Assembly (NCBI RefSeq): GCF_014199915.1
Contig: NZ_JACHOO010000005.1
Coordinates: 325,027 to 389,026 of the forward strand
DNA: 64,000 bases
Direction of reading: 5' to 3'
Source of the DNA: Prosthecomicrobium pneumaticum
Lineage (GTDB): Bacteria; Pseudomonadota; Alphaproteobacteria; Rhizobiales; Kaistiaceae
Shown: positions 37 through 14,015 of the stretch, one piece after another
Layout of the letters: every line of letters starts with the position of its first letter
Numbering within the stretch: the stretch's first letter is position 1
The notes under the pieces: generated by a model
What the model was told of the DNA's origin: nothing
What the model saw: the letters and a program-made list of their open reading frames with translations, nothing else
Database searches by the model: none
Position numbers and translations under genes: made by a program

Positions 37-1167
37 GTGATGGAGAGAGCCGTGATCGCCGGCGTGATTCTCGAGGACGGGGCGGCGTTTTCGCCCGACT
101 ATGCGAGCGCGCGGACGAAGATCGCCGCGCTCGCCGGGCTGTGGCCGTCGACCGCGATCCGCTACGACAATCCGCACGAGGGGCCGCAGGGCGAGCGGCT
201 CGCCACCGAGGCCCACTGGTTCGGGCCCGAGGCGGCGGCCGACGTGCTCGTGCTCGTCTCGGCGACGCACGGCGTCGAGGGTTTTTGCGGCTCGGGGGCG
301 CAGGCCGACTGGCTCCTGACCGGCGGACCGGCACGGCTTCCCCCCGACACCGCGGTGCTGATCGTCCACGCCCTCAATCCGCACGGCTTCGCCTGGCTGC
401 GGCGCACCACCGAGGAGGGCGTCGACCTCAACCGCAACTGCATCGATTTCGCGGCGCCGCTCCCCGCCAATCCCGGCTATGACGCGCTCGCCACCGCCTT
501 CGTGCCCGAAACGCTCGACGCGGCGACGCTCGCCGCGGCCGACCGGCGGATCGAGGCCTACCGCGCCGAGCATGGCCCGGTGCGCCTCGAGGAGGCGCGG
601 TCGAGCGGCCAGTACAGCCATCCGGAAGGCATTTTCTACGGCGGCACGGCGCCGACCTGGTCGCGCCGCACGATCGGGCGGATCGCCGCCGATTTCCGCC
701 TCGCCGGCCGCCGCAACGTCGCGGTGATCGATTTCCACACCGGGCTCGGCCCGTTCGGCTATGGCGAGCCGATCTGCGGCCATCGCCCGGGCGAGAGCGG
801 CCAGGCGCGCTGCCGCGCCTGGTATGGCGACAGCCTCGGCGAGCCGATGCTCGGCCGCTCCGCCTCGCTGCCGATCGCCGGCCTCAGCCAATATGCCTGG
901 GCGGCGGCGATCGGCGCCGAGCGGCTGAGCTTCGTGGCGCTCGAATTCGGCACCTATCCGCCCGACGAGGGCATGGCGGCGCTGCGCGCCGATCACTGGC
1001 TGCACGCCCATGGCACGCCCGACTGGGCGTCCGAGGAGACGCGGCGGATCAAGGCGGCGCTCCGCCGCTTCTATCACCCCGACACGCCGGACTGGCGGCA
1101 GATGGTGCTCCTGCGCAGCCGTCTCGTCGTCGCCCAGGCCTTTGCCGGCATGGCCCGGACCGTCTGA
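37..1167 (+). CDS. DUF2817 family M14-like zinc hydrolase
   Basis: A 376-residue protein of the DUF2817 family, related to M14 zinc carboxypeptidases and deacylases. Putative zinc-site elements are visible: ATHGVEG (His78, Glu81), DLNRN at 130-134 and DFHTGLGP with His234. There is no signal peptide, so it probably acts in the cytoplasm on a small amide or peptide. GTG at 37 is followed directly by ATG at 40; neither has a strong ribosome site, so the exact start is open. It lies 40 bases before a racemase and an amidohydrolase, which suggests an amide- or ureide-degrading operon. The substrate is unknown. Confidence 0.85.
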   Translation: MMERAVIAGVILEDGAAFSPDYASARTKIAALAGLWPSTAIRYDNPHEGPQGERLATEAHWFGPEAAADVLVLVSATHGVEGFCGSGAQADWLLTGGPARLPPDTAVLIVHALNPHGFAWLRRTTEEGVDLNRNCIDFAAPLPANPGYDALATAFVPETLDAATLAAADRRIEAYRAEHGPVRLEEARSSGQYSHPEGIFYGGTAPTWSRRTIGRIAADFRLAGRRNVAVIDFHTGLGPFGYGEPICGHRPGESGQARCRAWYGDSLGEPMLGRSASLPIAGLSQYAWAAAIGAERLSFVALEFGTYPPDEGMAALRADHWLHAHGTPDWASEETRRIKAALRRFYHPDTPDWRQMVLLRSRLVVAQAFAGMARTV

Positions 1168-1207
1168 CGCCGGCCGCGTCGATCATCAAGAAAAGGGTCT
1201 CCGAGCG

Positions 1208-1867
1208 ATGGCGCGCATCTTCGTTCTCAATCCGAACAGCTCGATCGGCGTCACCGCCGAGATGGACGCCGCGCTCGACCGGCTGCGTACGGCCGGCGGG
1301 CCGGAGATCGTCTGTGGCACGCTCGCCGAAGGCCCGCCCGGCATCGAGACGCAGGAGCACGTCGAGCGCGTCGTGCTGCCGATCGCCCGCCGCTTCGAGG
1401 CGGAGCCGGCCGACGCCTATGTGATCGGCTGCTTCTCCGATCCGGGCCTCGCGCTCGCCCGCGAAAACCTCTCCAGGCCGGTGTTCGGCATCGCCGAATC
1501 GGCCTTCCATCTCGCCCTCGGCCTCGGCCGGCGCTTCGGCATCGTGGCGATCAAGGCCGGCTCGATCCCGCGCCACATGCGCCATGTCCGCAGCCTCGGC
1601 CTCGCCGACCGGCTCGCCGGCGACCGGCCGCTCGGCGTCGGCGTCACCGAGATGGCGGGGGCGGGCGTCGTCGAGCGCATCGTCGCGGTCGGCACGCGGC
1701 TCCGCGACGAGGACGGTGCCGACGTGCTGATCCTCGGCTGCGCCAGCATGGGCGGGCACCGCGCGGCGATCGAGGCCGCGCTCGGCCTGCCGGTGATCGA
1801 CCCGACCCAGGCGGCGGTGGCGCGCGCGCTCGGCTTCCTCGCCCTCGGCTACGGCAGGGCGGCGTGA
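1208..1867 (+). CDS. Asp/Glu/hydantoin racemase family protein
   Basis: A 219-residue cofactor-independent racemase of the Asp/Glu/hydantoin racemase superfamily. The two catalytic cysteines expected of the family are present: Cys75 in VIGCFSDPG and Cys178 in ILGCASMGG. The N-terminus LNPNSS is typical of hydantoin racemases. The ATG at 1208 gives the standard family length; the frame stays open upstream but that part has no homology signature. It overlaps the next gene by four bases (GTGA), so the two are probably translationally coupled. With a downstream cyclic amidohydrolase, epimerisation of a hydantoin or allantoin-like ring is a reasonable inference. Confidence 0.88.
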   Translation: MARIFVLNPNSSIGVTAEMDAALDRLRTAGGPEIVCGTLAEGPPGIETQEHVERVVLPIARRFEAEPADAYVIGCFSDPGLALARENLSRPVFGIAESAFHLALGLGRRFGIVAIKAGSIPRHMRHVRSLGLADRLAGDRPLGVGVTEMAGAGVVERIVAVGTRLRDEDGADVLILGCASMGGHRAAIEAALGLPVIDPTQAAVARALGFLALGYGRAA

Positions 1868-3219
1868 CGGGAATGGCCTTCGATCTCGTGCTCAGGGGCA
1901 CGCTCGTCCGCCCCGCCGGCCCGACGCCCGGCGGCTGGATCGCCGTGTCGGGCGAGCGGATCGCCGCGATCGGCGCCGGCGCTCCGCCGCCGGCAAGGGC
2001 CGAAGAGGATTTCGGCGACGCCCTCCTCTTCCCCGGCTTCGTCGACGGCCAGACCCATGCGACGAGCTATCGCGGCCTGTCCGGCTTCGCGGCGACGAGC
2101 CGCTCGGCGCTCGCCGGCGGGGTGACCACGATGGTCGACATGCCCTATGACAATCCCGACCCGCTCGACACGGTCGCGAGGCTGGAGGCGAAGGTCGCGG
2201 CGGTCGAGAGCCTGTCGGCCTGCGACGTCGCGCTCTATGCGACGGTCGCGCCCGGCCAGGGCACGGGCGAGATGGCGGCGCTCGCCGCGGCCGGCGTCTG
2301 CGCCTTCAAGATCTCGAGCTTCGAGAGCCATCCGGTGCGCTTTCCGCGCCTGCCGGCCGACGAGACGCGCGCCATCCTCGCCGCCTCGGTGCCGACCGGC
2401 CTGCCGGTCGGGCTGCACAATGAGGATCAGGAGATCGTCCGCGGCGCGATCGCGGCCCTGAAGGCGGCGGGGAAGACGACGCCCGAATGGCACGAGCCGA
2501 GCCGGCCGCTCGCCGCCGAGCTCGCCGCGACCGCGCATTTCCTCGAGCTCGGCCGGGCGACCGGCGCGCATGTCCACATCGTCCATCTCTCCCATCCGCT
2601 CGGCTACGAGCTCGTCGCGCGCTATCGCGAGGAGGGCGTGCGGGCGACCGGCGAGATGTGCGTCCACTATCTGCATTTCGACGCGGCGCGCGACACGGCC
2701 CGGCTCGGCGCCCGCATGAAGGTGAGCCCGCCGATCCGCGCGGGCGTCGTCGACGCGCTGTGGCGGAGCCTCGCGGCCGACCGCTTCGCGCTCGTCTCGT
2801 CCGATCATTCGAGCTGGCCGGTCGACAACAAGCTCGTCCCGTCGATCTTCGACGCCGGCGCCGGCATTCCGGGGCTCGAGACGCTGGTGCCCTCCTTCTA
2901 CACCGACCTCCTCGCCCGCACCGACCGGCCGGCCGAGCGGCTGGCGCTCGAAGTGGCGGAGAAGCCCGCCCGGCTGTTCGGCCTGTGGGGCGTGAAGGGC
3001 GCGCTCGAACCCGGCTTCGACGCCGATGTCGCCGTGCTCGCGCCGGGCGCCTGGCGTTTCGACGCCTCGACGACACGGGACGGGCTCAACTGGAGCCCCT
3101 ATGACGGCGAGACCTTCGCCGCGCGCGTCGCCGCCACCTATCTGCGCGGCCGCAAGGTGTGGGACGGCACGTCCGTGCTCGGCGCGGCGGGCGGCCGGTT
3201 CGTGCCGCGGAGGGGCTGA
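1864..3219 (+). CDS. Cyclic amidohydrolase, dihydroorotase/allantoinase/hydantoinase type
   Basis: A 451-residue TIM-barrel amidohydrolase that probably opens a cyclic amide such as a hydantoin, dihydropyrimidine or allantoin. Visible metal-site elements are the probable carboxylated Lys149 (CAFKISSF), His185 (HNED), His241 (HIVHLSH) and Asp314 (SSDHSS). The usual N-terminal DxHxH motif reads DGQTHA (61-66), so the first metal His is replaced by Gln63, which departs from canonical dihydroorotases and allantoinases. The start is GTG 1864, overlapping the racemase stop; ATG 1873 is an alternative. The exact substrate cannot be assigned. Confidence 0.87.
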   Translation: MTGMAFDLVLRGTLVRPAGPTPGGWIAVSGERIAAIGAGAPPPARAEEDFGDALLFPGFVDGQTHATSYRGLSGFAATSRSALAGGVTTMVDMPYDNPDPLDTVARLEAKVAAVESLSACDVALYATVAPGQGTGEMAALAAAGVCAFKISSFESHPVRFPRLPADETRAILAASVPTGLPVGLHNEDQEIVRGAIAALKAAGKTTPEWHEPSRPLAAELAATAHFLELGRATGAHVHIVHLSHPLGYELVARYREEGVRATGEMCVHYLHFDAARDTARLGARMKVSPPIRAGVVDALWRSLAADRFALVSSDHSSWPVDNKLVPSIFDAGAGIPGLETLVPSFYTDLLARTDRPAERLALEVAEKPARLFGLWGVKGALEPGFDADVAVLAPGAWRFDASTTRDGLNWSPYDGETFAARVAATYLRGRKVWDGTSVLGAAGGRFVPRRG

Positions 3220-3220
3220 C

Positions 3221-4522
3221 TTGGCCGTCGAGACGTTCCATCGCACGCTGTGGTCGGCGCTCGCCCCCGCCGCCCCGCCCACCCCGCCGCTCGACGGCAT
3301 GGCGCGGGCGGACGTGGTGATCGTCGGCGCCGGCCTGCTCGGCCTGTCGGCGGCGCTGCATCTCGCCGAGACGGGCGTCGACGTCGCCGTGCTCGAGGCG
3401 GCGGAGCCGGGCTTCGGCGCTTCCGGGCGCAACACCGGCTTCGTCGTGCCGAGCCTTCGGACCTCGCTCGGCCCGGGCGACGTGACGGCCCGGCTCGGCG
3501 CCCATGGCGAGCCGCTGACCCGGCTGGTCGGCCAGTCGGGCACCATCGTCTTCGGGCTGATCCGCCGCCTCGGCATCGCCTGCGCCGCCGAACAGACCGG
3601 CTGGATGCAGCCGGCGCACAGCGCGGCGATGATGCGCACGCTCGAAACCCGCCAGCGCGACTGGGCGGCGCGCGGCCGCACCGTCACGATCCTCGACGCG
3701 GCCGAGACGGCACGGCGCGCCGGCATCGCCTTCTATCACGGCGCGCTCGTCGACCCGACGGGCGGCCAGATCAACCCGCTCGCCTATGCCCGCGGCCTCG
3801 CCGCCGCGGCGATCGGCGCGGGGGCGCGGATCCATGCCGCGAGCCGGGTCGCGGCGCTCGACCGGGCGGATGGCGGCTGGCTGGTGCGGACCGCGCGCGG
3901 CGCGGTGCGGGCCGATCGCGTGCTCCTCACCACCAATGCGCTCGTCGATGCGCTCGAGCCGTCGATGGCCGCCTCGATCATCCCCGTCCGGGTGCACCAG
4001 ATCGCCACCGAGCCGCTCGCCGAAGCCTTCGCCGACCGCCTGCTCGTCGGCCGTTCGCCGCTCGCCGACACCCGCCGCCACACCTTCGCGCTCCGCTGGT
4101 CGCCGGACGGCCGGCTCGTGACGGGCGGCATGGTGATGCCGGGACCGGGCGCGCTCGGCCGGGCGGAGCGCGGCTTCCTCGCCCGGCTGCGCCGCTTCGT
4201 GCCGGGGCTCGGCCCGGTGCGGGCGGACTTCGTCTGGAACGGGGTGATCGCGGCGACGCTCGACCAGATGCCGCGCTTCGTCGATCTCGCGCCCGGCCTC
4301 GACGCGGCGATCGGCTGCAACGGCCGCGGCGTCGCGCTCACCACCGCACTCGGGCGGGAGATCGCCGGCCTCTATGCCGGCCGCATCGCCGCCGCCGACT
4401 TCCCCCTGCCGCACGGCCGGCCGGAAAAGGTGCCCGGCCATTTCATGGCGCGGCACGGGCCGGCGCTGTGGCTGCCCTGGAGCAATTGGCGCGACGACCG
4501 CGAGAGCGCCGCCGGACGATGA
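3221..4522 (+). CDS. FAD-dependent amino-acid/amine oxidase (DAO family)
   Basis: A 433-residue FAD oxidoreductase of the D-amino-acid-oxidase fold. After a leader ending in PPLDG comes the dinucleotide-binding strand VVIVGAGLLGLSAALHLAE, an acidic strand end (VLEA) and the ASGRNTGF flavin-contact motif. The C-terminus has the NGRGVALTT segment expected near the isoalloxazine. TTG 3221 is chosen because members of this family carry the same leader before the GxGxxG motif; ATG 3299 would remove it. It starts one base after the amidohydrolase stop, so it belongs to the same transcript and may oxidise an amine or amino acid released upstream. Confidence 0.86.
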   Translation: MAVETFHRTLWSALAPAAPPTPPLDGMARADVVIVGAGLLGLSAALHLAETGVDVAVLEAAEPGFGASGRNTGFVVPSLRTSLGPGDVTARLGAHGEPLTRLVGQSGTIVFGLIRRLGIACAAEQTGWMQPAHSAAMMRTLETRQRDWAARGRTVTILDAAETARRAGIAFYHGALVDPTGGQINPLAYARGLAAAAIGAGARIHAASRVAALDRADGGWLVRTARGAVRADRVLLTTNALVDALEPSMAASIIPVRVHQIATEPLAEAFADRLLVGRSPLADTRRHTFALRWSPDGRLVTGGMVMPGPGALGRAERGFLARLRRFVPGLGPVRADFVWNGVIAATLDQMPRFVDLAPGLDAAIGCNGRGVALTTALGREIAGLYAGRIAAADFPLPHGRPEKVPGHFMARHGPALWLPWSNWRDDRESAAGR

Positions 4523-4605: not shown

Positions 4606-5535
4606 TCAGCCGCGCTGCGCGAGCCGCCTTTCGAGCCGGTCCATCAGCCGGGTCAGCTCGGCCTGGTCGATCGCGTCGAGCTTCGGACCGGGCGCGCGCA
4701 CATGCGCCGAGGCGATCGCACCGCGGCGGCGCAGGATCTCCTTGCGGATCGCGAGGCCGAGGCCGGGCTGCGTCTCGTGCCGGATCAGCGGCAGATGCGC
4801 GTCGAAGACGTCCTCCGCGCCCTCCTCATCGCCCGCCCGCATCCGCGTCACCACATCGGCGAGCATCTCCGGATAGGCATAGCCCGTCATCGCGCCGTCG
4901 GCGCCGCGGGCGAGCTCCTGCGGCAGGAACAGGCCGCCATTGCCGACGAGGATCGAGACCCGCCGCGAGCCCCGCTCGGCGGCGTTGCGGCGCAGTCGCG
5001 ACAGCTTCGAAAGGCCCGGCCAGTCCTCGTGCTTCAGCATCACGATCTGCGGATTGGCGGCGAAGATCGCCTCGAGGGTCGGAACGGAGAAGTTGACGCC
5101 GAGAGTGAGGGGGAAGTCCTGCAGCACCACCGGCACGTCCGGCCCGAGCGCGGCGCAGACGGCGGCGTAATAGCCGATCAGCTGCTCCTCGGTCTTCTGG
5201 CTCGGCAGCGGCGCCACCATCACGCCCGCCGCGCCGGCCTCGATCGCCTCGTGCGCCAGCGCGACGAGCGCCGCCATGCCCGGGCTCGAAACGCCGACCA
5301 CCACCGGGAACCGCCCGGCGACGCGGCCGAGCACGACCTTCAGGAAGTCCGAGCTCTCCTGCGGCGAGAGCTTCGGCGCCTCGCCCATCATGCCGAGAAT
5401 GGTGAGGCCGGTGGCGCCGTGGCCGGCATAGAAATCGGTCAGCCGCTCGGCGCTCGCGAGATCGAGCCGGCCGTCGTCGGAGAAGGGGGTGGCGGAGATC
5501 GGGAAAACGCCGCTCGCGCTTTCATCGAGACGCAT
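4606..5535 (-). CDS. DapA-like class I lyase/aldolase (DHDPS/NAL superfamily)
   Basis: A 309-residue member of the dihydrodipicolinate synthase/N-acetylneuraminate lyase superfamily of Schiff-base enzymes. The catalytic lysine is Lys168 in IVMLKHED. It is not a canonical lysine-biosynthesis DapA: the TTGE motif reads MMGEAPKL (49-56) and the active-site tyrosine region reads VVLQDFP, without Tyr. A 2-keto-acid aldolase, dehydratase or amide-type lyase is therefore likelier. The start ATG at 5535 gives the family length. The gene is divergent from a DapB-like reductase and sits beside a GntR regulator, with a predicted operator in between. Confidence 0.85.
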   Translation of the reverse strand: MRLDESASGVFPISATPFSDDGRLDLASAERLTDFYAGHGATGLTILGMMGEAPKLSPQESSDFLKVVLGRVAGRFPVVVGVSSPGMAALVALAHEAIEAGAAGVMVAPLPSQKTEEQLIGYYAAVCAALGPDVPVVLQDFPLTLGVNFSVPTLEAIFAANPQIVMLKHEDWPGLSKLSRLRRNAAERGSRRVSILVGNGGLFLPQELARGADGAMTGYAYPEMLADVVTRMRAGDEEGAEDVFDAHLPLIRHETQPGLGLAIRKEILRRRGAIASAHVRAPGPKLDAIDQAELTRLMDRLERRLAQRG

Positions 5536-5736: not shown

Positions 5737-5835
5737 ATGCCGGCCGGCTCCCCGCGTCCCATCCCCGTCGTCCTGTTCGGCCTCGGCGCCCTCGGCGCGC
5801 TGGTGATCCGCTGCTCGCCACCGGCTATCCGATGA
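5737..5835 (+). pseudogene. Detached N-terminus of the DapB-like reductase (frameshift)
   Basis: A 32-codon frame starting at ATG 5737 encodes the first Rossmann strand and glycine loop (FGLGALG, codons 5776-5796), which the following gene lacks. It leaves the reading frame near 5809-5811. Skipping one base there joins ..GALVIR to LLATGYPMIRVV.., restoring a normal reductase N-terminus as in the intact paralogue at 12969. As written it ends at TGA 5833-5835, overlapping the next ATG. The cause may be a real one-base deletion, a programmed frameshift or a sequencing error. Confidence 0.7.
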
Positions 5836-6863
5836 TCCGCGTCGTCGCCGCGGTCGACCACGATCCGCAGAAGGCCGGCCGGCGCCTCGCCGACCTCTTT
5901 CCCGATTTCGCCGGCGCCGGCGATGTGGTCGTCGCGGCCGATCTCGCGACCGCGCTCGCCGGTGCGGCGGAGCGGCCGGAGCTCCTCTACCACCTCACCG
6001 AATCGGCGCCGGAACGGATCGAGGGCCAGTTGCTCGCGGCGCTCGCCGCCGGGCTCGACGTGCTCTCCGCCTCGGAGGCGATGTTCCATCCGGGCCTGCG
6101 CCATGCCGGCTTCGCGGACCGGCTCGATCGCGCGGCGAAGGCGGCGGGCGTGACGGTCTCCGGCACCGGCATCAATCCGGGCTTCTCCTTCGACAGCCTG
6201 CCGCTCGTGCTCGCCCGGGCGAGTTCGGGCATCCGCCGCGTGACGATCACGCGGGCGATCGACGTGACCGGCACCGGGCCGGGCGACATCGACCATGTCG
6301 GCTATGCGCTGTGGCCCGACGAGTTCGACGAGAAGATCGCCGCCGGCCGGATCGTCGGCCATATGGGCATGCCGGAATCGATCGCCGTCCTTGCCGAGCG
6401 GCTCGGCATCGCGATCGACCGGGTCGAGGAGCGCTGGGAGACGGCGACCGCCGATTTTCCGGTCGATTCCGGCACGCCGAGCCTCGGCATGATCGAGCCG
6501 GGGCGGGTGATCGGCATCACCCAGACCGGGATCGGCCTCGCCGGCGCCGAGGCGGTGATCCGGATGAGCCTGATCATGTATTACGACCCGGAGCGGTTCG
6601 GCATCGCCGTCGCCGATACGATCGACATCGAGGGCGACCATCACGTGCGGGCGCGCGTCGAGCCGGCGGCGCTGTCGCTGCTCGGCGCGGCGAATGTCCT
6701 CGTCAATGCGACCGCCGATGTGCGGGCGGCGCCGCCCGGCCTCTTCGACGTGCTCGAAGCGCCGCTCGCCGGCGCGCGGCGGGGCGGCTTCCGCTACCGC
6801 CTCGATCCCGACACGGCGCTGCGGCCGGGCGTCGTGCCGCTCGTCCGGGTCGCCGCCTCCTGA
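5832..6863 (+). CDS. DapB/2,4-diaminopentanoate-dehydrogenase-like NAD(P) reductase, N-terminus frameshifted
   Basis: A 343-codon frame encoding most of a DapB-like NAD(P)-dependent oxidoreductase. It has the INPGF motif (GTGINPGFSFD) and the GHMGMPES motif typical of the amine-dehydrogenase branch that includes 2,4-diaminopentanoate dehydrogenase, rather than true DapB. The first beta strand and the GxGxxG loop are missing from this frame and lie in the overlapping upstream frame (5737-5835). It is clearly paralogous to the intact gene at 12969-14015. If translated only from ATG 5832 it would lack nucleotide-loop residues and may be inactive. Context suggests a reductive step on an amino or imino acid. 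Confidence 0.8.
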   Translation: MIRVVAAVDHDPQKAGRRLADLFPDFAGAGDVVVAADLATALAGAAERPELLYHLTESAPERIEGQLLAALAAGLDVLSASEAMFHPGLRHAGFADRLDRAAKAAGVTVSGTGINPGFSFDSLPLVLARASSGIRRVTITRAIDVTGTGPGDIDHVGYALWPDEFDEKIAAGRIVGHMGMPESIAVLAERLGIAIDRVEERWETATADFPVDSGTPSLGMIEPGRVIGITQTGIGLAGAEAVIRMSLIMYYDPERFGIAVADTIDIEGDHHVRARVEPAALSLLGAANVLVNATADVRAAPPGLFDVLEAPLAGARRGGFRYRLDPDTALRPGVVPLVRVAAS

Positions 6864-6907: not shown

Positions 6908-7273
6908 TCACATGTCGCCGTCTTCCTTGCTCGGATTGGCGCAGACCGCGATGACGAGCCCGGCATCGCCGATGATGTGGCGGTAGCGATAGACCTTCGG
7001 CAGATACATCGCGTCGCCCTGGCGGAAGATCCGCTCCTCGCCCGTCGCCTCGACGATCTGCCGCGACCAGCCCTGCAGGCAGTAGAGGATCACCTCGTGC
7101 TTGCCGTCGCCTTCGACCATCACGTCGAAATGCGGCATGTAGGTCGTGATGTGGAAGGAGATCGAGGAGCCCTGCTTCTTGTTGGTGATCAGCCGATGGC
7201 TGAACTCCTGTCCCTCGTGGATCCAGGTCTTCGTCGTGCCCTCCTGGCGGGCCCACATGATCTTGTCGCCCAT
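6908..7273 (-). CDS. Small cupin-domain protein
   Basis: A 121-residue single-domain cupin. A beta-rich core with HFDVMVEGDGKHEVIL, GWSRQIV and FRQGDAMYLPK matches the two cupin motifs; the histidines at HFD and KHE could bind a metal. The start at 7273 is preferred because GGGGA lies seven bases upstream; 7321 is a longer option that would cover an operator-like site. It lies between the DapB-like gene and the GntR regulator. Small cupins in catabolic clusters are often isomerases, lyases or dioxygenase-like enzymes, and no specific reaction can be assigned. Confidence 0.78.
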   Translation of the reverse strand: MGDKIMWARQEGTTKTWIHEGQEFSHRLITNKKQGSSISFHITTYMPHFDVMVEGDGKHEVILYCLQGWSRQIVEATGEERIFRQGDAMYLPKVYRYRHIIGDAGLVIAVCANPSKEDGDM

Positions 7274-7302
7274 CGGCGCGTCCCCATCGTTTGAGATGTG
7301 TC

Positions 7303-7314
7303 GTGATATTTCAG
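7303..7314. promoter_or_regulatory. GTGATATTTCA operator-like site before cupin gene
   Basis: CGTGATATTTCA lies about 30 bases upstream of the cupin start at 7273. Its complement contains AAATATCACG. It shares the GTGATAT core with the sites at 5691 and 12608, so it is a candidate site for the neighbouring GntR protein. Confidence 0.4.
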
Positions 7315-7366
7315 TTAACATGGCGTGTCGATGCCGCGGCGTGTCCGCGGCGCCCCGCAGGCGGCG

Positions 7367-8212
7367 TCAGAGACTGATCTGGGCGAAGCTGCGCGAGGTG
7401 GCGAGCGCCTTGAACAGGCCCTCGCGGGTCAGGTCGTTGTGCCTGATCATGATCGCGCGCGCCGCCGCCGGATCGCGCCGGCGCAGCACCTCGACGATGG
7501 CGTGATGGTCGTCGACCGTCTCGCTGTTGACGTCGCGCAGCCGCGCGCCGAGATAGAAGAAGCGCTCCAGCTCGTCGATCTGGCGGGTGATCAGCGTTTC
7601 GAGCCGGACATTGCCGGAGGCATTGGCGATCGCGGCGTGGAAATCGCGATTGGCCTTGATGAAGCGCTGCAGGCTCGGCTGCTCGGCGCGGTCGTAGACG
7701 ACGTCGGCGAGCTTCTGCAGCCGGTCGAGCTCGGCATCGGTGATCCGCGCGCAGGCGAGTTCGGCGGCGCCCGCCTCGAGAATGGTGCGCAGGTCGAACA
7801 GCTCGCTCATGTCGCCGAAGGTGATCGGCACGACCTGATAGCCGCGGCGCGGAAAGGTGCGCACGAAGCCCTCCTGGCGCAGCGTCGCGAGCGCCTCGCG
7901 CACCGGCGTCTTCGAGACGTCGAAGCGCTGCGCGAGTTCCGCCTCGGAGAGCTCGCGCCCGGGCTCCAGCGCGCAGGTCAGGATGTCGTTGCGCAGCAAT
8001 TGATAGACGCGGTCGGTCAGCGATTCCCGCCCGCCCTTCTTCGGTGCCCGCGATCGCGCCGGCGGGGCGGGGCGGCGCACCGGCACGTCCCTCGCCGGCG
8101 TCTCGCCCTCGGCCCTCACGCCGTTCTCGTCGCTGCCCGCTGCCATCGTTCCGTTCCGCGCTTTCCGGTTCGAACCTGCCGACTCCGCATCGGCGATCAT
8201 ATCAGCCCGCAT
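7367..8212 (-). CDS. GntR-family transcriptional regulator (FCD/FadR type)
   Basis: A regulator of up to 281 residues. After a basic, low-complexity N-terminus (to about residue 60) comes the winged helix: SLTDRVYQLLRNDI, then LSEAELAQRFDVSKTPVREAL, then the wing FPRRGYQV. A C-terminal helical FCD effector domain follows. Starts at 8212, 8200 or 8146 are possible and none has a convincing ribosome site; two ATATCA elements fall at 8201-8216, which would be leader sequence if 8146 is used. It probably represses the surrounding DapA/DapB-like, flavoprotein and transporter genes, with an organic acid or amino acid as effector. Confidence 0.88.
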   Translation of the reverse strand: MRADMIADAESAGSNRKARNGTMAAGSDENGVRAEGETPARDVPVRRPAPPARSRAPKKGGRESLTDRVYQLLRNDILTCALEPGRELSEAELAQRFDVSKTPVREALATLRQEGFVRTFPRRGYQVVPITFGDMSELFDLRTILEAGAAELACARITDAELDRLQKLADVVYDRAEQPSLQRFIKANRDFHAAIANASGNVRLETLITRQIDELERFFYLGARLRDVNSETVDDHHAIVEVLRRRDPAAARAIMIRHNDLTREGLFKALATSRSFAQISL

Positions 8213-8299: not shown

Positions 8300-8336
8300 T
8301 CGTGTTGCAGTGCAAACGGGAACCGGGAGAGGCAGA

Positions 8337-9908
8337 ATGGACGGGGCGGATGGCGCGGCGATCGCGACCGAGGCCGATGGCTATGCGCAGGAGATCGCCG
8401 CGATGCTGGCGCTCGATCATGCCGAGCTGCGCGGCGGCCTCGCGCCGCCCTCCTGCCCGCCGCCGCGGCCCGACGCCGGCCGCCGGCTCGCCGCGCTGAC
8501 GGCGCGGGTGCGGCACGATCTCGCCGTGCTCTCCTATCCGAAGGACGACTGGGTCCTGCCGCGCCGCCATCCCGACGGCCACCATGTCTACGACGTCGCG
8601 ATCGTCGGCGGCGGGCAGTGCGGCATGGCGGTCGCCTTCGGCCTGATGCGCGACCGGGTGACCAATGTCGTCGTGCTCGACCGCGCGCCGAAGGGCCGCG
8701 AGGGGCCGTGGATCACCTATTCGCGGATGTGGACGCTGCGCTCGCCCAAGCACGTCACCGGACCCGATCTCGGCATCCCCTCGCTCGCGCCGCGCTCCTG
8801 GTTCGAGGCCGTGTTCGGCGAGGACGGCTGGGAGAAGCTCGGCAAATGGCCCCGCCAGGCCTGGCAGGCCTATCTCGACTGGTATCGCGAGGCGCTCGCC
8901 CTGCCGGTGCGCAACGACGCCGAGGTGACGGCCTTCGAGGACGAGGCCGGGCTCGTCCGGCTCGCGATCCGCGGCGGCGAACCGGTCTATGCCCGCAAGG
9001 TCGTGCTCGCCACCGGGCTCGAGGGCATCGGCGACTGGTACGTGCCGCCCTTCGTACGCGACAAGCTGCCGGCCGATCGCTGGACGCTCGCCACCGACGA
9101 TGTCGACAGCCTCGACTGGAAGGGCAGGCGGATCGCCGTGCTCGGCGCCGGCGCGACGGCCTGGGACCGTGCCGCCGACCTCCTCGAACTCGGCGCGGCG
9201 CGCCTCACCCTCTATATGAGGCGGCCGCAGATCCTCACCGCCAACCCGTTCCGCTATCTCGAGAAGGCGGGCTTCCTGCGCCACTTCGCCTCGATGGGCG
9301 ATGCCGACAAATGGCGCTGGATCCAGGCGATGTTCCGCTTCGGCCAGCCGCCGACGCAGGACGGCGTCGACCGCTGCGCCGCCTTCGACACCTTCCGCCT
9401 TCATGCCGGCGCCTCCTTCGCCGACGTGGCGCTCGAAGAGGGCCGGGTTCGCGTCACCGGCACGGACGGCTCGGTCGACCATTTCGACCATCTCTTCATC
9501 GGCTGCGGCTTCTCGATGGATCCGCACAACCGGCCGGAGCTCGCCCCGCTCGCCGACAACATCCTCACCTGGGCCGACGTGCACACCCCGCCGTCGGGCC
9601 AGGAGGACAACTGGCTGATCACCTATCCCTATCTCGACCGCGATCTCGCCTTCGTCGAGAGGGAGCCCGGGCGGACGCCGGTGCTCGCCAACATCCACTG
9701 CTTCAACTACGGCGCGACCGTCACCAACGCCCATTCCGGCGCCTCGCTGTCCGGCATCCGCTACGGCATCGAGCCGCTCATCCACGGCCTCACCTACAAG
9801 CTCTGGATCGAGGACGAGCCGGTCCACTATGAGCGGACCCGGGCGTGGGCCGAGATCGACACCGACCCCGCCCCGCTCGCCGGCCGGCTCTGGCGGCCGG
9901 GCGACTGA
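8337..9908 (+). CDS. FMO-like FAD/NAD(P)-binding oxidoreductase
   Basis: A 523-residue two-dinucleotide-domain flavoprotein related to flavin-containing monooxygenases. The FAD-binding loop is [12 protein letters not shown] near residue 90, and a second Rossmann motif [14 protein letters not shown] lies near residue 270, the expected NAD(P)H site. The C-terminus has IGCGFSMD and [15 protein letters not shown]. The start ATG 8337 follows GAGAGG. It is divergent from the GntR gene with an operator over its promoter, so it is probably induced by the pathway substrate. An N- or C-oxygenation of an amine or keto acid is possible; the substrate is unknown. Confidence 0.85.
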
Positions 9909-9950: not shown

Positions 9951-11474
9951 CTACTTGAGCACGGCCTCGAGGAAGCGGATGGTCCGCTCGTGCTGCGGCC
10001 GCTCGAAGAAATCCTCGGCCGACGCGACCTCGACGATCTGCCCGCCATCCATGAACACCACCCGGTCCGCGACGCGGCGGGCAAAGCCCATCTCATGGGT
10101 GGCGACGAGCATCGTCATGCCGCTCGCCGCGACGTCCTCGAGCACCTGCAGCACCTCGCCGACGAGCTCCGGATCGAGCGCCGAGGTCGGCTCATCGAAC
10201 AGCATCACGTCCGGCCGCATGGCGAGGGCACGGGCGATCGCGACGCGCTGGCGCTGGCCGCCGGAGAGCTGGCTCGGAAAGGCGGTGAGCTTGCCCCCGA
10301 GGCCGACCCGGGCGAGCAGGCCGGCGGCGATGCGTCCGGCCTCCGGTCCCGCCATCCGGCGCACCCGCAAGAGGCCTTCCGTGACGTTCTCGACCGCCAG
10401 CTTGTGCGGCCACAGATTGAAGTGCTGGAACACCATGCCGACATGGCCGCGCAGCCGCGTCATCTCGCGCCCCGACACCGCCCGCGCCGTCGGTCCGAAG
10501 GCGAGGTCGAAACGGGCGCTGCCGGCATCGATGGCGATCTGGCCGCCATCCGGCCGTTCGAGCAGGTTGATGCAGCGCAGCAGCGTGCTCTTGCCCGAGC
10601 CGCTCGGCCCGAGCACGCAGACCACCTCGCCGGCCCGCACGCTGAGATTGACCCGGGCGAGCGCCGTCGTCGCGCCGAAGCGCTTTTCGAGGCCGGCGAT
10701 CTCGAGCACCCGCCGGCCCTCCTCGGCGGGGCCCTCGACGAGCGCCGGCGCCGCGGCCGGCACGGAGGCCGCATCGCCGCCGAGGCCGAGCCGGGTGAGC
10801 CGGCGGCGCGACGGCGGCCGCTTGTCGAAGGCGAGGTAATGCTCGAGGAGGAGCTGGCCGAAGGCGAGGAAGGACGTCAGGAACAGGTAGATCGCCCCCG
10901 CGACGATCAGCGCTTCCAGCGCCCGGAAGGTGTTCGAATAGATGAAGGTCGTCGTCAGAAGCAGTTCGCGCACCGTCACGACGGAAGCGAGCGAGGTGCT
11001 CTTCACGTGACTGATGAAGTTGCTCATATAGGGCGGCGTGACGACCTGGATCGCCTGCGGCAGGATGATCCGCCACAGAATGGTCGGATAGCTCATGCCG
11101 ACGGCGCGGGCCGCCTCGACCTGGCCCGGCTGGATCGATTGCAGGCCGGCGCGCAGCACCTCCGCATTATAGGCCGCCGAGGTGATGGCGAAGGCGATGA
11201 TCGCCGCCGGCAACGGCTCGAGCGTGATGCCGATGGTCGGCAGGCCGAAATAGATCAGAAAGAGATGGATCAGCGGTGGCGTGCCGCGGGCGATCCAGAT
11301 GTAGAGGAAGGCCGGCACGCTGAGGATCTTGAGCGGCGACATCCGCGCGAGCGCCAGCAGGAAGCCGCACAGCGTGCCGATGATCTGCGACGTGACGGCG
11401 AGGAAGATCGTCATCAGCGTCGCCGTCGCGAGCAGCGGCGCGTAGGGAAGGATCGAGGTGAAGTCGAGGGTCAT
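9951..11474 (-). CDS. Polar amino-acid ABC transporter, permease-ATPase fusion
   Basis: A 507-residue fusion of two subunits usually encoded separately. Residues 1-215 form a HisM/GlnP-type membrane permease with several hydrophobic segments and an EAA loop ([20 protein letters not shown], 120-139). After a Pro/Ala-rich linker, residues from about 257 form an ATPase: Walker [10 protein letters not shown] (289-297), Q-loop [10 protein letters not shown], signature [10 protein letters not shown], Walker [12 protein letters not shown] and switch HEMGFA. The start ATG 11474 sits directly before the first membrane segment. With the binding protein at 11655-12473 it forms an importer needing only this one membrane protein, probably as a homodimer. 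Confidence 0.92.
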
Positions 11475-11654
11475 CGCAATCCGGTGTCGGCGGCGGTCTG
11501 AACGGCCTCGCCGCCCGCGAGCGGGGTGCGGCCCGCTCCGGACGCCGAAGCAACGGCCGTGCCGCGCCGCAGAGCGGCGCCCGGGCGAGCGCGGCACGAG
11601 AGCCGCCGCATCCGGTGTGGCACCGGATGCGGGGCAGAACGGCGGGCGCTCCGC

Positions 11655-12473
11655 CTATTTCTTCAGCGGCGCGTCTTCGCCGATCGGCGGCAGGGCGGCG
11701 TCGTAATCGTCGAGATTGAAGCTCGTCTTCGCCATCGCGTTCAGCGTGCCGTCGCTGCGGGCGTCCGAGATGATCTTGTCGAGCGCCGCCTTCATCTCGG
11801 TCGAGCCCTTCGGCAGCGGATAGCCGACCAGATTGACCTTGTAGGGCTTGCCGACGATCTTGGCGATGCCGGGCCGGCTCTTCATGAATTCGGCCGCCTG
11901 CTTGTCGCCGACGATCGCCACTTCGATGCGGCCGGCGACGAAATCGGCGAACTGCTCGGCGACGCCGGGATAGACCTTCAGCTCCTTGTAGCCGCCGATC
12001 TCGCGCACAACGTCGTCGCCGTCCGCGCCGATCGGCGCGCCGACGATCTTGCCGGCGATGTCGGTCGGGCCGGACACGTCGGTGTTCGTCTCCGGCACCA
12101 TGGCGACGATCGCGGTGCGGGAATAGGGCACGGAGAAGTCGAACACTTCCTGCCGCGCCGGCGTGATGTTGACGCCCGAGCAGATCATCTGCGTGCGGCC
12201 CGAAGTGATCGAGGGCAGCAGGCCTTCCCAGGCGAGCACGCCGAGATCGAGCTTCACGCCGAGCTTGTCGGCGATGAGGTTGCACATGTCGACCTCGTAG
12301 CCGACCGGCTTGCCGGACGCGTCCATCATGACGTTCGGCCGGTCGTTGCCGGTGGTGAGCGCGTGCATCACGCCCTCCGACTTGATCTTGGCGAGATCGT
12401 CGGCGAGGGCCGGCGCCGCTCCGGCGACGGCGATCAGCGCCGCGGCGGCGAGAGTCTTGCAGATCGGAGTCAT
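11655..12473 (-). CDS. Polar amino-acid ABC transporter substrate-binding protein
   Basis: A 272-residue periplasmic binding protein of family 3. It has a Sec signal peptide with a hydrophobic core AAAALIAVAGAAPALA and likely cleavage after ALA, followed by the two-lobed binding domain (GYEVDMCNLIADKLG, RTQMICSGVNITPARQ, FSVPYSRTA). It captures an amino acid or opine-like ligand for the fused permease-ATPase, whose gene lies 180 bases downstream on the same strand. The gap between them may allow higher expression of the binding protein. A strong operator dyad lies upstream at 12608-12633. Confidence 0.92.
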   Translation of the reverse strand: MTPICKTLAAAALIAVAGAAPALADDLAKIKSEGVMHALTTGNDRPNVMMDASGKPVGYEVDMCNLIADKLGVKLDLGVLAWEGLLPSITSGRTQMICSGVNITPARQEVFDFSVPYSRTAIVAMVPETNTDVSGPTDIAGKIVGAPIGADGDDVVREIGGYKELKVYPGVAEQFADFVAGRIEVAIVGDKQAAEFMKSRPGIAKIVGKPYKVNLVGYPLPKGSTEMKAALDKIISDARSDGTLNAMAKTSFNLDDYDAALPPIGEDAPLKK

Positions 12474-12607
12474 GGAACCTGTTCCCTGAAAGGTGTGCCG
12501 GACCGTGCCGGACGCTTGTTGCGGCGTCTTCGGCTCCCCCCAATGCCCGGTGTTCGCGTCTTCTGACGAGCCGCTCTGCACCTCCGGGACGATGCAACGA
12601 TCCGACA

Positions 12608-12633
12608 ATATCACTTGAAGTGTCAAGTGATAT
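12608..12633. promoter_or_regulatory. Perfect operator dyad between transporter and YciI operons
   Basis: ATATCACTTGA-N4-TCAAGTGATAT is a perfect 11-base inverted repeat in the 202-base divergent region between the binding protein (12473, minus) and the YciI gene (12676, plus). It contains the same ATATCAC core as the sites near 5.6, 7.3 and 8.2 kb, so it is the best candidate for the strongest site of the GntR regulator at 7367-8212. One dimer here could control both directions. Confidence 0.65.
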
Positions 12634-12675
12634 ATCTATGGTTCGGGGAACAGCCCGAAACGGAGGCCGGCGGCC

Positions 12676-12969
12676 ATGTTCATGATCACGAGCACCTATC
12701 GCGCGCCGCAGCCTGCGATCGCCGCGGCGCTGCCGGCGCACCGGGCCTGGATCGACGCGCTCTATGCGGGCGGCGTGTTCGTCCTGTCCGGCCGGCTGGT
12801 GCCGCCCTCCGGCGGCTTCATGCTCGCGATCGGCATCGGCCGGGCGGAACTCGAGGCGCTCCTCGCCACCGATCCGTTCCGCATCGCCGATCTCCTCGAT
12901 CACACGATCACCGAACTCGAGCCGACCCGCCACGCCCCGGAGTTCGAGCCCTTCAAGGAACGCTTCTGA
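12676..12969 (+). CDS. YciI family protein
   Basis: A 97-residue protein of the YciI fold, a small ferredoxin-like domain. The family's conserved His-Asp pair is recognisable in AHRAWIDALYAGG (His about 23, Asp about 27). These proteins are thought to be small hydrolases, dehydrochlorinases or isomerases, but few have a proven role. GGAGG nine bases before ATG 12676 supports the start. Its stop overlaps the ATG of the DapB-like gene by one base, so the two are coupled and probably act in the same pathway. Confidence 0.85.
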   Translation: MFMITSTYRAPQPAIAAALPAHRAWIDALYAGGVFVLSGRLVPPSGGFMLAIGIGRAELEALLATDPFRIADLLDHTITELEPTRHAPEFEPFKERF

Positions 12970-14015
12970 TGCGGATCGCGCTCTTCGGCTTCGGCAGCCT
13001 CGGCCGCGCCCTCCTCGCCGCCGCCGCGGCGATGCCCGACGTCACCGTCGCGACGATCGTCGACCACGCCCCCGGCCTCGCCGGCACCGCCGTGGAAGGT
13101 CCGGCCGGCAGCCTCACGGTCGCACCCCGCCTTCCCCCCGCGGCGGCGCCGACCGTGCTCTTCCATGCCACCACCTCGGATCCCGAGCGCGCCACGGCCG
13201 AAATCGTCGCCGCGCTCGAGGCGGGCTATGCCGTCGTCTCGGCGGCCGAGTGGCTGTTCCATCCCTGGCTGCGTTTTCCCCGCGCGGCGGAGGCGATCGA
13301 CCGGGCGGCGCGTGCCGCCGGCCGGGCCGCGCTCGGCTGCGGCATCAATCCCGGCTTCTGCTTCGAGGCGCTGCCGATCCTCGCCGCGCGCACCCTCGCG
13401 CGGGTCGACCGCTTCGACATCCTGCGCATCTCGAACGTCTCGGGCGTCGGCCCGTCCGATTTCGCTCATCTCGGCTTCGGCCTCGACGAGGCGACCTTCC
13501 GCGCCCGCGTCGCGGACGGCGCCATCGAGGGCCATATGGGCTTTCCGGAATCGGTCGCCGCGCTCGCCGAATGCACCGGCGTCGCGATCGACGCGATCGA
13601 GGACCGGCTCGCCGCGCTGCCGGCGCGGCGGCCGGTGACGCTCGCCCACCGCACCGTGGCGGAGGGCGAGGCGGTGGCGATCACCCAGGTGGCGACCGGC
13701 TTCAGGGCCGGCGCGGCGGTGATCACCATGACGCTCGAAATGCATCTCGATCCGGAGTTCTACGGCCGCACCCCGCGCGAGGCGGTGCGCATCGAGGGGA
13801 GCCGGACGCTCGCCCTCGACATCGCACCCGCCGCCCCGCCGGTGCCCGGTGCCGCGGCGATGATGCTCCATGCCGCCCGCGCCCTCGGCGCCCTGCCGCC
13901 GGGGCTCGCGAGCCCGCTCGACCTGCCGGCCGGCGGCAGCGGGCCGACCCGCCGCCTCTCCGCCGGCCCGGCGGCGCGCGACGGCAGCGGCAGCCGCTTC
14001 GCCCTCGCCGGCTGA
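12969..14015 (+). CDS. DapB/2,4-diaminopentanoate-dehydrogenase-like NAD(P) reductase
   Basis: A 348-residue intact paralogue of the frameshifted gene at 5737-6863. The Rossmann loop FGFGSLG is at residues 6-12; CGINPGFCFE and GHMGFPES mark the branch containing 2,4-diaminopentanoate dehydrogenase and related amine dehydrogenases rather than lysine-biosynthetic DapB. AAGGA eight bases upstream lies inside the YciI gene, and start and stop overlap as TGATG. Its place in a regulon with an amino-acid importer supports an NAD(P)-dependent amine or imine reaction during catabolism. The exact substrate is unknown. Confidence 0.85.
   Translation: MRIALFGFGSLGRALLAAAAAMPDVTVATIVDHAPGLAGTAVEGPAGSLTVAPRLPPAAAPTVLFHATTSDPERATAEIVAALEAGYAVVSAAEWLFHPWLRFPRAAEAIDRAARAAGRAALGCGINPGFCFEALPILAARTLARVDRFDILRISNVSGVGPSDFAHLGFGLDEATFRARVADGAIEGHMGFPESVAALAECTGVAIDAIEDRLAALPARRPVTLAHRTVAEGEAVAITQVATGFRAGAAVITMTLEMHLDPEFYGRTPREAVRIEGSRTLALDIAPAAPPVPGAAAMMLHAARALGALPPGLASPLDLPAGGSGPTRRLSAGPAARDGSGSRFALAG

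Follow-up and report, generated by a model that had tools for sequence, protein, structure and literature searches.

A conserved racemase-amidohydrolase-oxidase operon of Alphaproteobacteria and the glutamine at the metal site of its ErtD-like cyclic amidohydrolase

What compound might be handled by a gene cluster whose cyclic amidohydrolase carries a glutamine in place of the first histidine of the HxH metal motif? This question is raised by Prosthecomicrobium pneumaticum (assembly GCF_014199915.1), in which positions 325,027 to 389,026 of contig NZ_JACHOO010000005.1, a stretch of 64,000 nucleotides hereafter called the window, contain the four genes below. A sequence-only reading had described them as an operon with an altered metal site. 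Our analysis indicates that the glutamine is a common trait of an enzyme branch, neither a broken nor a unique metal site, and that the operon, in which a known kind of enzyme has a distinctive set of partners, is of more interest than the glutamine. The four genes would make up a catabolic operon that acts on a chiral cyclic ureide with a carboxylate, or on a similar cyclic amide, a reading to which we assign a probability of about 0.5.

37-1167 (+): DUF2817 protein, GTG start; Pfam PF10994, 352 bits
1208-1867 (+): Asp/Glu/hydantoin racemase family protein, ATG start; Pfam Asp_Glu_race, 181 bits
1864-3219 (+): ErtD-like cyclic amidohydrolase, GTG start; Pfam Amidohydro_1, 29 bits; NCBIfam NF058538, 472.6 bits
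3221-4522 (+): FAD-dependent amine oxidase (DAO fold), TTG start; Pfam DAO, 198 bits

The operon, its partners and its amidohydrolase

All four frames and their stops held at the coordinates first proposed for them, with the GTG, ATG, GTG and TTG starts. As called, a 40-base gap separates the DUF2817 and racemase genes, the racemase and amidohydrolase genes overlap by 4 bases, and the DAO gene follows after 1 base, a gap that presumes its TTG start. The tight spacing stood with these starts, except that the overlap is doubtful: the amidohydrolase probably starts at ATG 1873, because the first codon of an 83% ortholog in genome G302, whose open frame has only 450 residues, aligns there, and a 5-base gap would then follow the racemase. 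Residue numbers counted from ATG 1873 are those of the GTG start minus three. The proposal of a real operon was supported, since the order racemase-amidohydrolase-DAO was seen again in other genera and is therefore not a chance arrangement.

Partner genes were counted by tblastn at 12 loci of the window's branch, from Xaviernesmea, Microvirga, Salipiger, Faunimonas, an Alsobacter metagenome-assembled genome (MAG), an Acetobacteraceae MAG and others, the window's own included. Ten of them are rows of the tree described below, and two (L187 and L188, 78% and 79% identity) were added by identity, outside the tree; L188 is cut by a contig end, so that the racemase, the regulator and the upstream genes lie beyond view there. 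In a comparison of 10 loci the window's own locus (L009) ended soon after the DAO gene, and its downstream genes are counted among the 12 loci. The racemase stood upstream at all 11 loci where that stretch was visible, and a pipecolate-oxidase-like DAO gene was present in all 12, directly after the amidohydrolase in 8. A DUF2817 gene was found in 5 of the 12 and a creatininase-family gene in 6, with at least one of the two in 10. The idea of DUF2817 as a partner found everywhere was rejected: of 397 genomes in the order, 4 had a close copy, against 18 with the amidohydrolase (E<=1e-125). Near two of these four copies, in genomes G444 and G625 (46% and 39% identity), no racemase or amidohydrolase was recognised by eye among open frames within about 1.5 kb.

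Hydantoin operons are made up of racemase, hydantoinase and carbamoylase. The window resembles them in that a racemase of the hydantoin/allantoin kind adjoins a cyclic amidohydrolase, but DUF2817 or creatininase and the DAO oxidase are present here and an M20 carbamoylase is not. No M20 match lay near the amidohydrolase in the 10 window-branch loci examined, whereas an adjacent M20 gene was found in 6 of seven ErtD-type loci, and urocanase-like and DUF917 genes in 4 of the seven. In the host genome, an M20 carbamoylase gene stands directly beside each of the two classical hydantoinases (L004 and L006).

The nearest solved relatives of the racemase were hydantoin and allantoin racemases (3qvj, 2eq5 and 5lfd). 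It scored 181.3 bits against PF01177 (gathering score 31), and both Cys75 and Cys178 were retained in all 70 matches that spanned the two sites. For the DUF2817 protein, no relative was found in the PDB by sequence. Its predicted structure, of middling confidence (predicted local distance difference test score (pLDDT) 68.5; predicted template modelling score (pTM) 0.77), matched carboxypeptidases with a Z of up to 16.6, a value given by 2c1c with a root-mean-square deviation of 3.5 over 239 residues. The HxxE motif (His78 and Glu81), His234 and Glu303 were retained in 5 of 5 aligned copies. Having both the zinc carboxypeptidase-like fold and the HxxE...H metal motif, the protein is predicted to be a zinc-dependent carboxypeptidase-like (M14-type) amide hydrolase. 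The NCBI model nearest to the DAO protein was L-pipecolate oxidase AmaA (NF050086), with a score (269.8 bits) far under the cut-off of 600.

The best NCBIfam model for the amidohydrolase was ErtD (hydantoin-5-propionate amidohydrolase, NF058538), with 472.6 bits under a cut-off of 600; the second ErtD-type model, NF058539, gave 340.5 bits under a cut-off of 650. The scores with the models for allantoinase (TIGR03178, 249.4 bits), D-hydantoinase/dihydropyrimidinase (TIGR02033, 184.4 bits) and dihydroorotase (TIGR00857, 172.9 bits) also lay under their cut-offs (357.85, 393.25 and 279.05, respectively). As these curated cut-offs were missed, a ring substrate other than plain hydantoin or allantoin, as had been suggested, is probable. 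The AlphaFold model (pLDDT 94.0) has the fold of cyclic amidohydrolases of the hydantoinase/allantoinase/dihydroorotase kind, and its best match was L-hydantoinase 1gkr (template modelling score (TM) 0.94). L-Hydantoinase 1gkr and the allantoinases 3e74, 3hm7 and 8hfd share this fold (TM 0.90 to 0.94) and the Lys, His, His and Asp ligands; they differ in their identity of 27-31%, in the first His, which their aligned chains keep, and in the absence of the RFPR motif described below. Dihydroorotase 2gwn ranked 18th (TM 0.88, 24% identity). The window protein lies in the same amidohydrolase branch as ErtD and shares with it the RFPR arginines and the glutamine, but the racemase and DAO genes replace the adjacent M20, urocanase and DUF917 genes, none of which accompanies it at the window locus. 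The amidohydrolase is thus a member of an alphaproteobacterial branch with its own gene partners, not ErtD proper.

The glutamine at the metal site

2044-2058 (+): DGQTH codons, Asp61-His65 (GTG-start numbering); Gln63 instead of the first His of HxH

The DGQTH motif was confirmed, together with the retention of Lys149, His185, His241 and Asp314 (GTG-start numbering). HMMER alignments placed DGQTH opposite DEHVH of 1gkr, DVHVH of 3hm7 and DAHTH of 3e74. The strand-1 motif of the amidohydrolase is QxH, and HxH is not universal in cyclic amidohydrolases either.

The relatives compared included, out of 552 confirmed stretches, the 80 most like the window protein, a choice that leans to close relatives; the branch set of 94 excludes identical copies, and the motif of the second copy in genome G040 (L090) was taken from a crude text search. 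In this set, Gln was found in 92 of the 94 distinct members of the ErtD superclade sampled and His in the other two, and the expectation that the Gln might define a clade was borne out. His62, Lys146, His182, His238 and Asp311 (ATG numbering) were conserved in 94/94, so that the family's metal-binding Lys, both His and Asp are complete in every member. At the same position, 37 outgroup rows had 25 His, 11 Gln and 1 Arg. In the tree, which covers 92 of the 131 rows (quick search, LG+G4, Gln column included), the 11 Gln rows of the outgroup all fell into a single dihydroorotase clade separate from the ErtD branch; the two of them that were scanned, L005 and L064, are PRK09060 dihydroorotases (763 and 734 bits; cut-off 482). 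Four changes of state were needed, of which well-supported branches force three. On this tree, the Gln arose separately in the ErtD superclade and in the dihydroorotase clade. Among the five matches above the ErtD cut-off in a sample of 289 genomes, four had Gln and one (L014) had His, indicating that the two residues interchange inside one named family.

The crystallised Porphyromonas gingivalis dihydroorotase 2GWN reads DDQVH and is entered as Zn(alpha,beta) in a table of a 2025 paper (PMC12524618). Since Gln goes together there with zinc listed at both sites, Gln alone implies no mononuclear site, and the view that it marks the metal site as new, mononuclear or shifted was not supported. 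Nor is the Gln unusual: judged by the refuting condition set in the sequence-only reading it is widespread, being carried by four of the five above-cut-off matches to ErtD, a hydantoin-opening family, by 11 of 11 rows of the dihydroorotase clade and by 2GWN.

A competing explanation likens the enzyme to E. coli NagA: the Gln would abolish the alpha metal and leave a mononuclear beta-site amidohydrolase with Asp314 as the base. NagA is similar in that its HxH is altered with Gln first; it has QxN and a single metal at the beta site (PMC3880350, PMC6016474). Lys149, His185 and His241 alone could hold such a beta metal. Two points weigh against a metal pair in the window enzyme, namely that the alpha metal can be lost along with HxH, as NagA shows (PMC3880350), and that 2GWN is only 24% identical, with its metal content quoted from one table row (PMC12524618). 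However, NagA has lost both residues of HxH, whereas the second His is retained here in 94/94; 2GWN, with Gln and His, has both zincs listed; and Gln and His swap within the ErtD family. By analogy with 2GWN, a Gln with the second His kept appears compatible with two metals. The mononuclear alternative is possible but not favoured, and we regard it as rather unlikely. Recognising the Gln as a clade trait of enzymes that very probably work should spare a false chase after a "broken metal site".

PMC3880350 also states that all known type I and type II dihydroorotases possess HxH, with which the QxH dihydroorotases fit badly. PRK09060-type dihydroorotases and 2GWN share QxH with the window enzyme; the PRK09060 enzymes differ from it in their separate clade, in serving pyrimidine synthesis and in having no RFPR in the rows compared. 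In the host genome, the PRK09060 dihydroorotase L005 reads DTQVH. A dihydroorotase-like protein, L007 (contig C3 of the same genome, 315203-316420), passes its own NCBI cut-off (679.9 against 645) and is without the aligned metal ligands; PyrB (C3:316518-317411) lies 97 bases from L007, and the Gln-bearing PRK09060 copy lies elsewhere in the genome. No type II PyrC was found in the host genome above the model cut-off. We infer that the Gln-bearing L005 is probably the working dihydroorotase of this genome, an assignment kept provisional by L003, which also passes the broad TIGR00857 model (316 against 279).

Substrate and candidate pathway

2338-2349 (+): RFPR codons, Arg156-Arg159 (ATG-1873 numbering); clade-specific arginine pair in the counterpart of hydantoinase stereochemistry gate loop 3

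Stereochemistry gate loop 3 extends from Lys150 to Asp162 in the numbering of the Geobacillus hydantoinase, as given in PMC7175128. Lys146 of the amidohydrolase aligns with this Lys150, and RFPR therefore lies in the loop in contact with the ring substituent. Arg156 was found in 100% and Arg159 in 99% of the 94 clade members, against 3% and 5% of the 37 outgroup rows; the whole signature of the branch (Asp93, Ser148, Arg156, Arg159, Asn183 and Trp315) was missing from nearly all outgroup rows. An arginine pair kept throughout the clade in this loop suggests an acidic ring substituent, as in hydantoin-5-propionate. Compared with the seven ErtD-type rows, the window branch has Tyr instead of Gln at position 66, Leu instead of Gln at 69, Pro instead of Gly at 95 and Pro instead of Leu at 97, all of them within or close to the other gate loops. 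Because of these differences, the rest of the substrate molecule is probably unlike that of ErtD.

Downstream of the four genes lie the following features.

4606-5532 (-): DHDPS-family lyase/aldolase; conserved neighbour in the same island, on the opposite strand
5832-6863 (+): 2,4-diaminopentanoate-dehydrogenase-like oxidoreductase; NF040740, 172 bits against a cut-off of 400
6908-7321 (-): small cupin; recurrent neighbour
7367-8212 (-): GntR/FCD regulator
9951-12626 (-): polar amino acid type ABC transporter; fused permease-ATPase at 9951-11597 and binding protein at 11655-12626

Among the window-branch loci, the DHDPS-like lyase recurred in 10/12, the GntR regulator in 11/11 visible, the small cupin in 8/12, the diaminopentanoate-dehydrogenase-like gene in 5/12 and a permease/ATPase-like match in 11/12. 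The GntR/FCD gene likely regulates the island, and the ABC transporter is likely its uptake system.

The sequences establish the gene identities, the conservation of the gene set, the clade with its residue signature and the lack of a urocanase-like gene in the genome; the reaction steps that follow are proposals. In the pathway that we propose, the ring compound would be taken up by this transporter, and the racemase, judged by its family and both cysteines, would interconvert the enantiomers at the acidic carbon of the ring. The ErtD-like amidohydrolase would then use a metal-activated water to open the ring. The site of this reaction would most likely be a metal pair bridged by a carboxy-lysine, in which, as 2GWN suggests, Gln63 replaces or leaves open one His position of the alpha site, while the arginine pair of gate loop 3 would bind the acidic substituent. 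The DUF2817 protein, or the creatininase-family protein in most relatives without DUF2817, may hydrolyse the ring-opened amide or carbamoyl group, a step that would stand where ErtD clusters have the M20 gene. The freed amine would be oxidised by the DAO flavoenzyme, and the DHDPS-like lyase and the dehydrogenases would act on the product. Tentatively, and with somewhat less confidence than in the catabolic operon as such, these steps may make up an undescribed alphaproteobacterial pathway for a natural acidic ring compound, consisting of racemisation, ring opening by a Gln variant, deacylation by DUF2817 or creatininase (which would be the first function for DUF2817), flavin oxidation and a lyase step. 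No published description of the operon was found, and the only paper on DUF2817 in the literature searched concerned an unrelated topic; both are weak evidence, since subscription papers lay mostly outside the search. The operon, conserved and testable, could give DUF2817 a role and could reveal a ring compound consumed by Rhizobiales and Rhodobacterales.

Several observations weigh against this pathway. DUF2817 is present at only 5 of the 12 loci; L092 holds both DUF2817 and creatininase, so that the swap between them is not clean, and L098 holds neither. The DAO gene is apart from the amidohydrolase in L093, L094, L097 and L098, and the range of the racemase family also includes non-hydantoin compounds. 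The amidohydrolase model is least reliable in gate loop 3 (mean pLDDT 61 for residues 151-160) and therefore does not fix the direction of the arginines.

The ring might alternatively be no ureide but a cyclic imide, lactam, lactone or sulfur heterocycle, with DUF2817 or creatininase acting on something else. The amidohydrolase has no M20 carbamoylase beside it, yet both classical hydantoinases of the host do, and the MalY/PatB lyase and rhodanese of sister operons hint at sulfur chemistry there; the nearest solved folds, in turn, are those of L-hydantoinase and allantoinase, and the racemase belongs with hydantoin and allantoin racemases. We consider a non-ureide ring rather unlikely. Breakdown of creatinine or N-methylhydantoin was not adopted, as neither compound is chiral and no racemase would be needed. 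Ectoine breakdown, raised by the cupin, was not adopted either: a search up to E = 1 gave no match between the window cupin and ectoine synthase, and a homologue in L134 had a weak one (20.5 bits, under a cut-off of 27). Least of all is the amidohydrolase likely to be ErtD itself, because, although ErtD is its best model and RFPR is common to both, the curated cut-off was missed, no M20 gene lies nearby, positions 66, 69, 95 and 97 differ, a urocanase-like gene is absent from the host genome and G302 (the same query matched in four control genomes) and the DUF917 search gave only weak matches of 26-29%; breakdown of ergothioneine was therefore rejected.

Related loci and side observations

An FAD/NAD(P)-binding oxidoreductase at 8310-9908 of the window lies beside the island also in G302 (81%), in Lichenifustis (L153, 73%) and in others. 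Just beyond the transporter, a second diaminopentanoate-dehydrogenase-like frame (12615-14015) is about 42% identical to that at 5832-6863.

Relatives in Rhizobium and Devosia (L105, L139, L119, L146 and similar loci, at about 10001-11341) have the racemase and amidohydrolase together with DHDPS, SDR and MalY/PatB lyase genes, and carry rhodanese and an oligopeptide-type ABC transporter as well. This gene content hints at a sulfur-containing ring in these sister loci.

Finally, a 57% paralog of the amidohydrolase in the same genome (L010, 12013-13404; contig C11, 97021-98361) also reads DGQTH. Its neighbours are a nitrilase, a Rieske oxygenase, a ferredoxin reductase and a NIPSNAP gene, and the same set was seen in Mesorhizobium, Kaistia, Faunimonas and others, which represents a different pathway with the same ring-opener.

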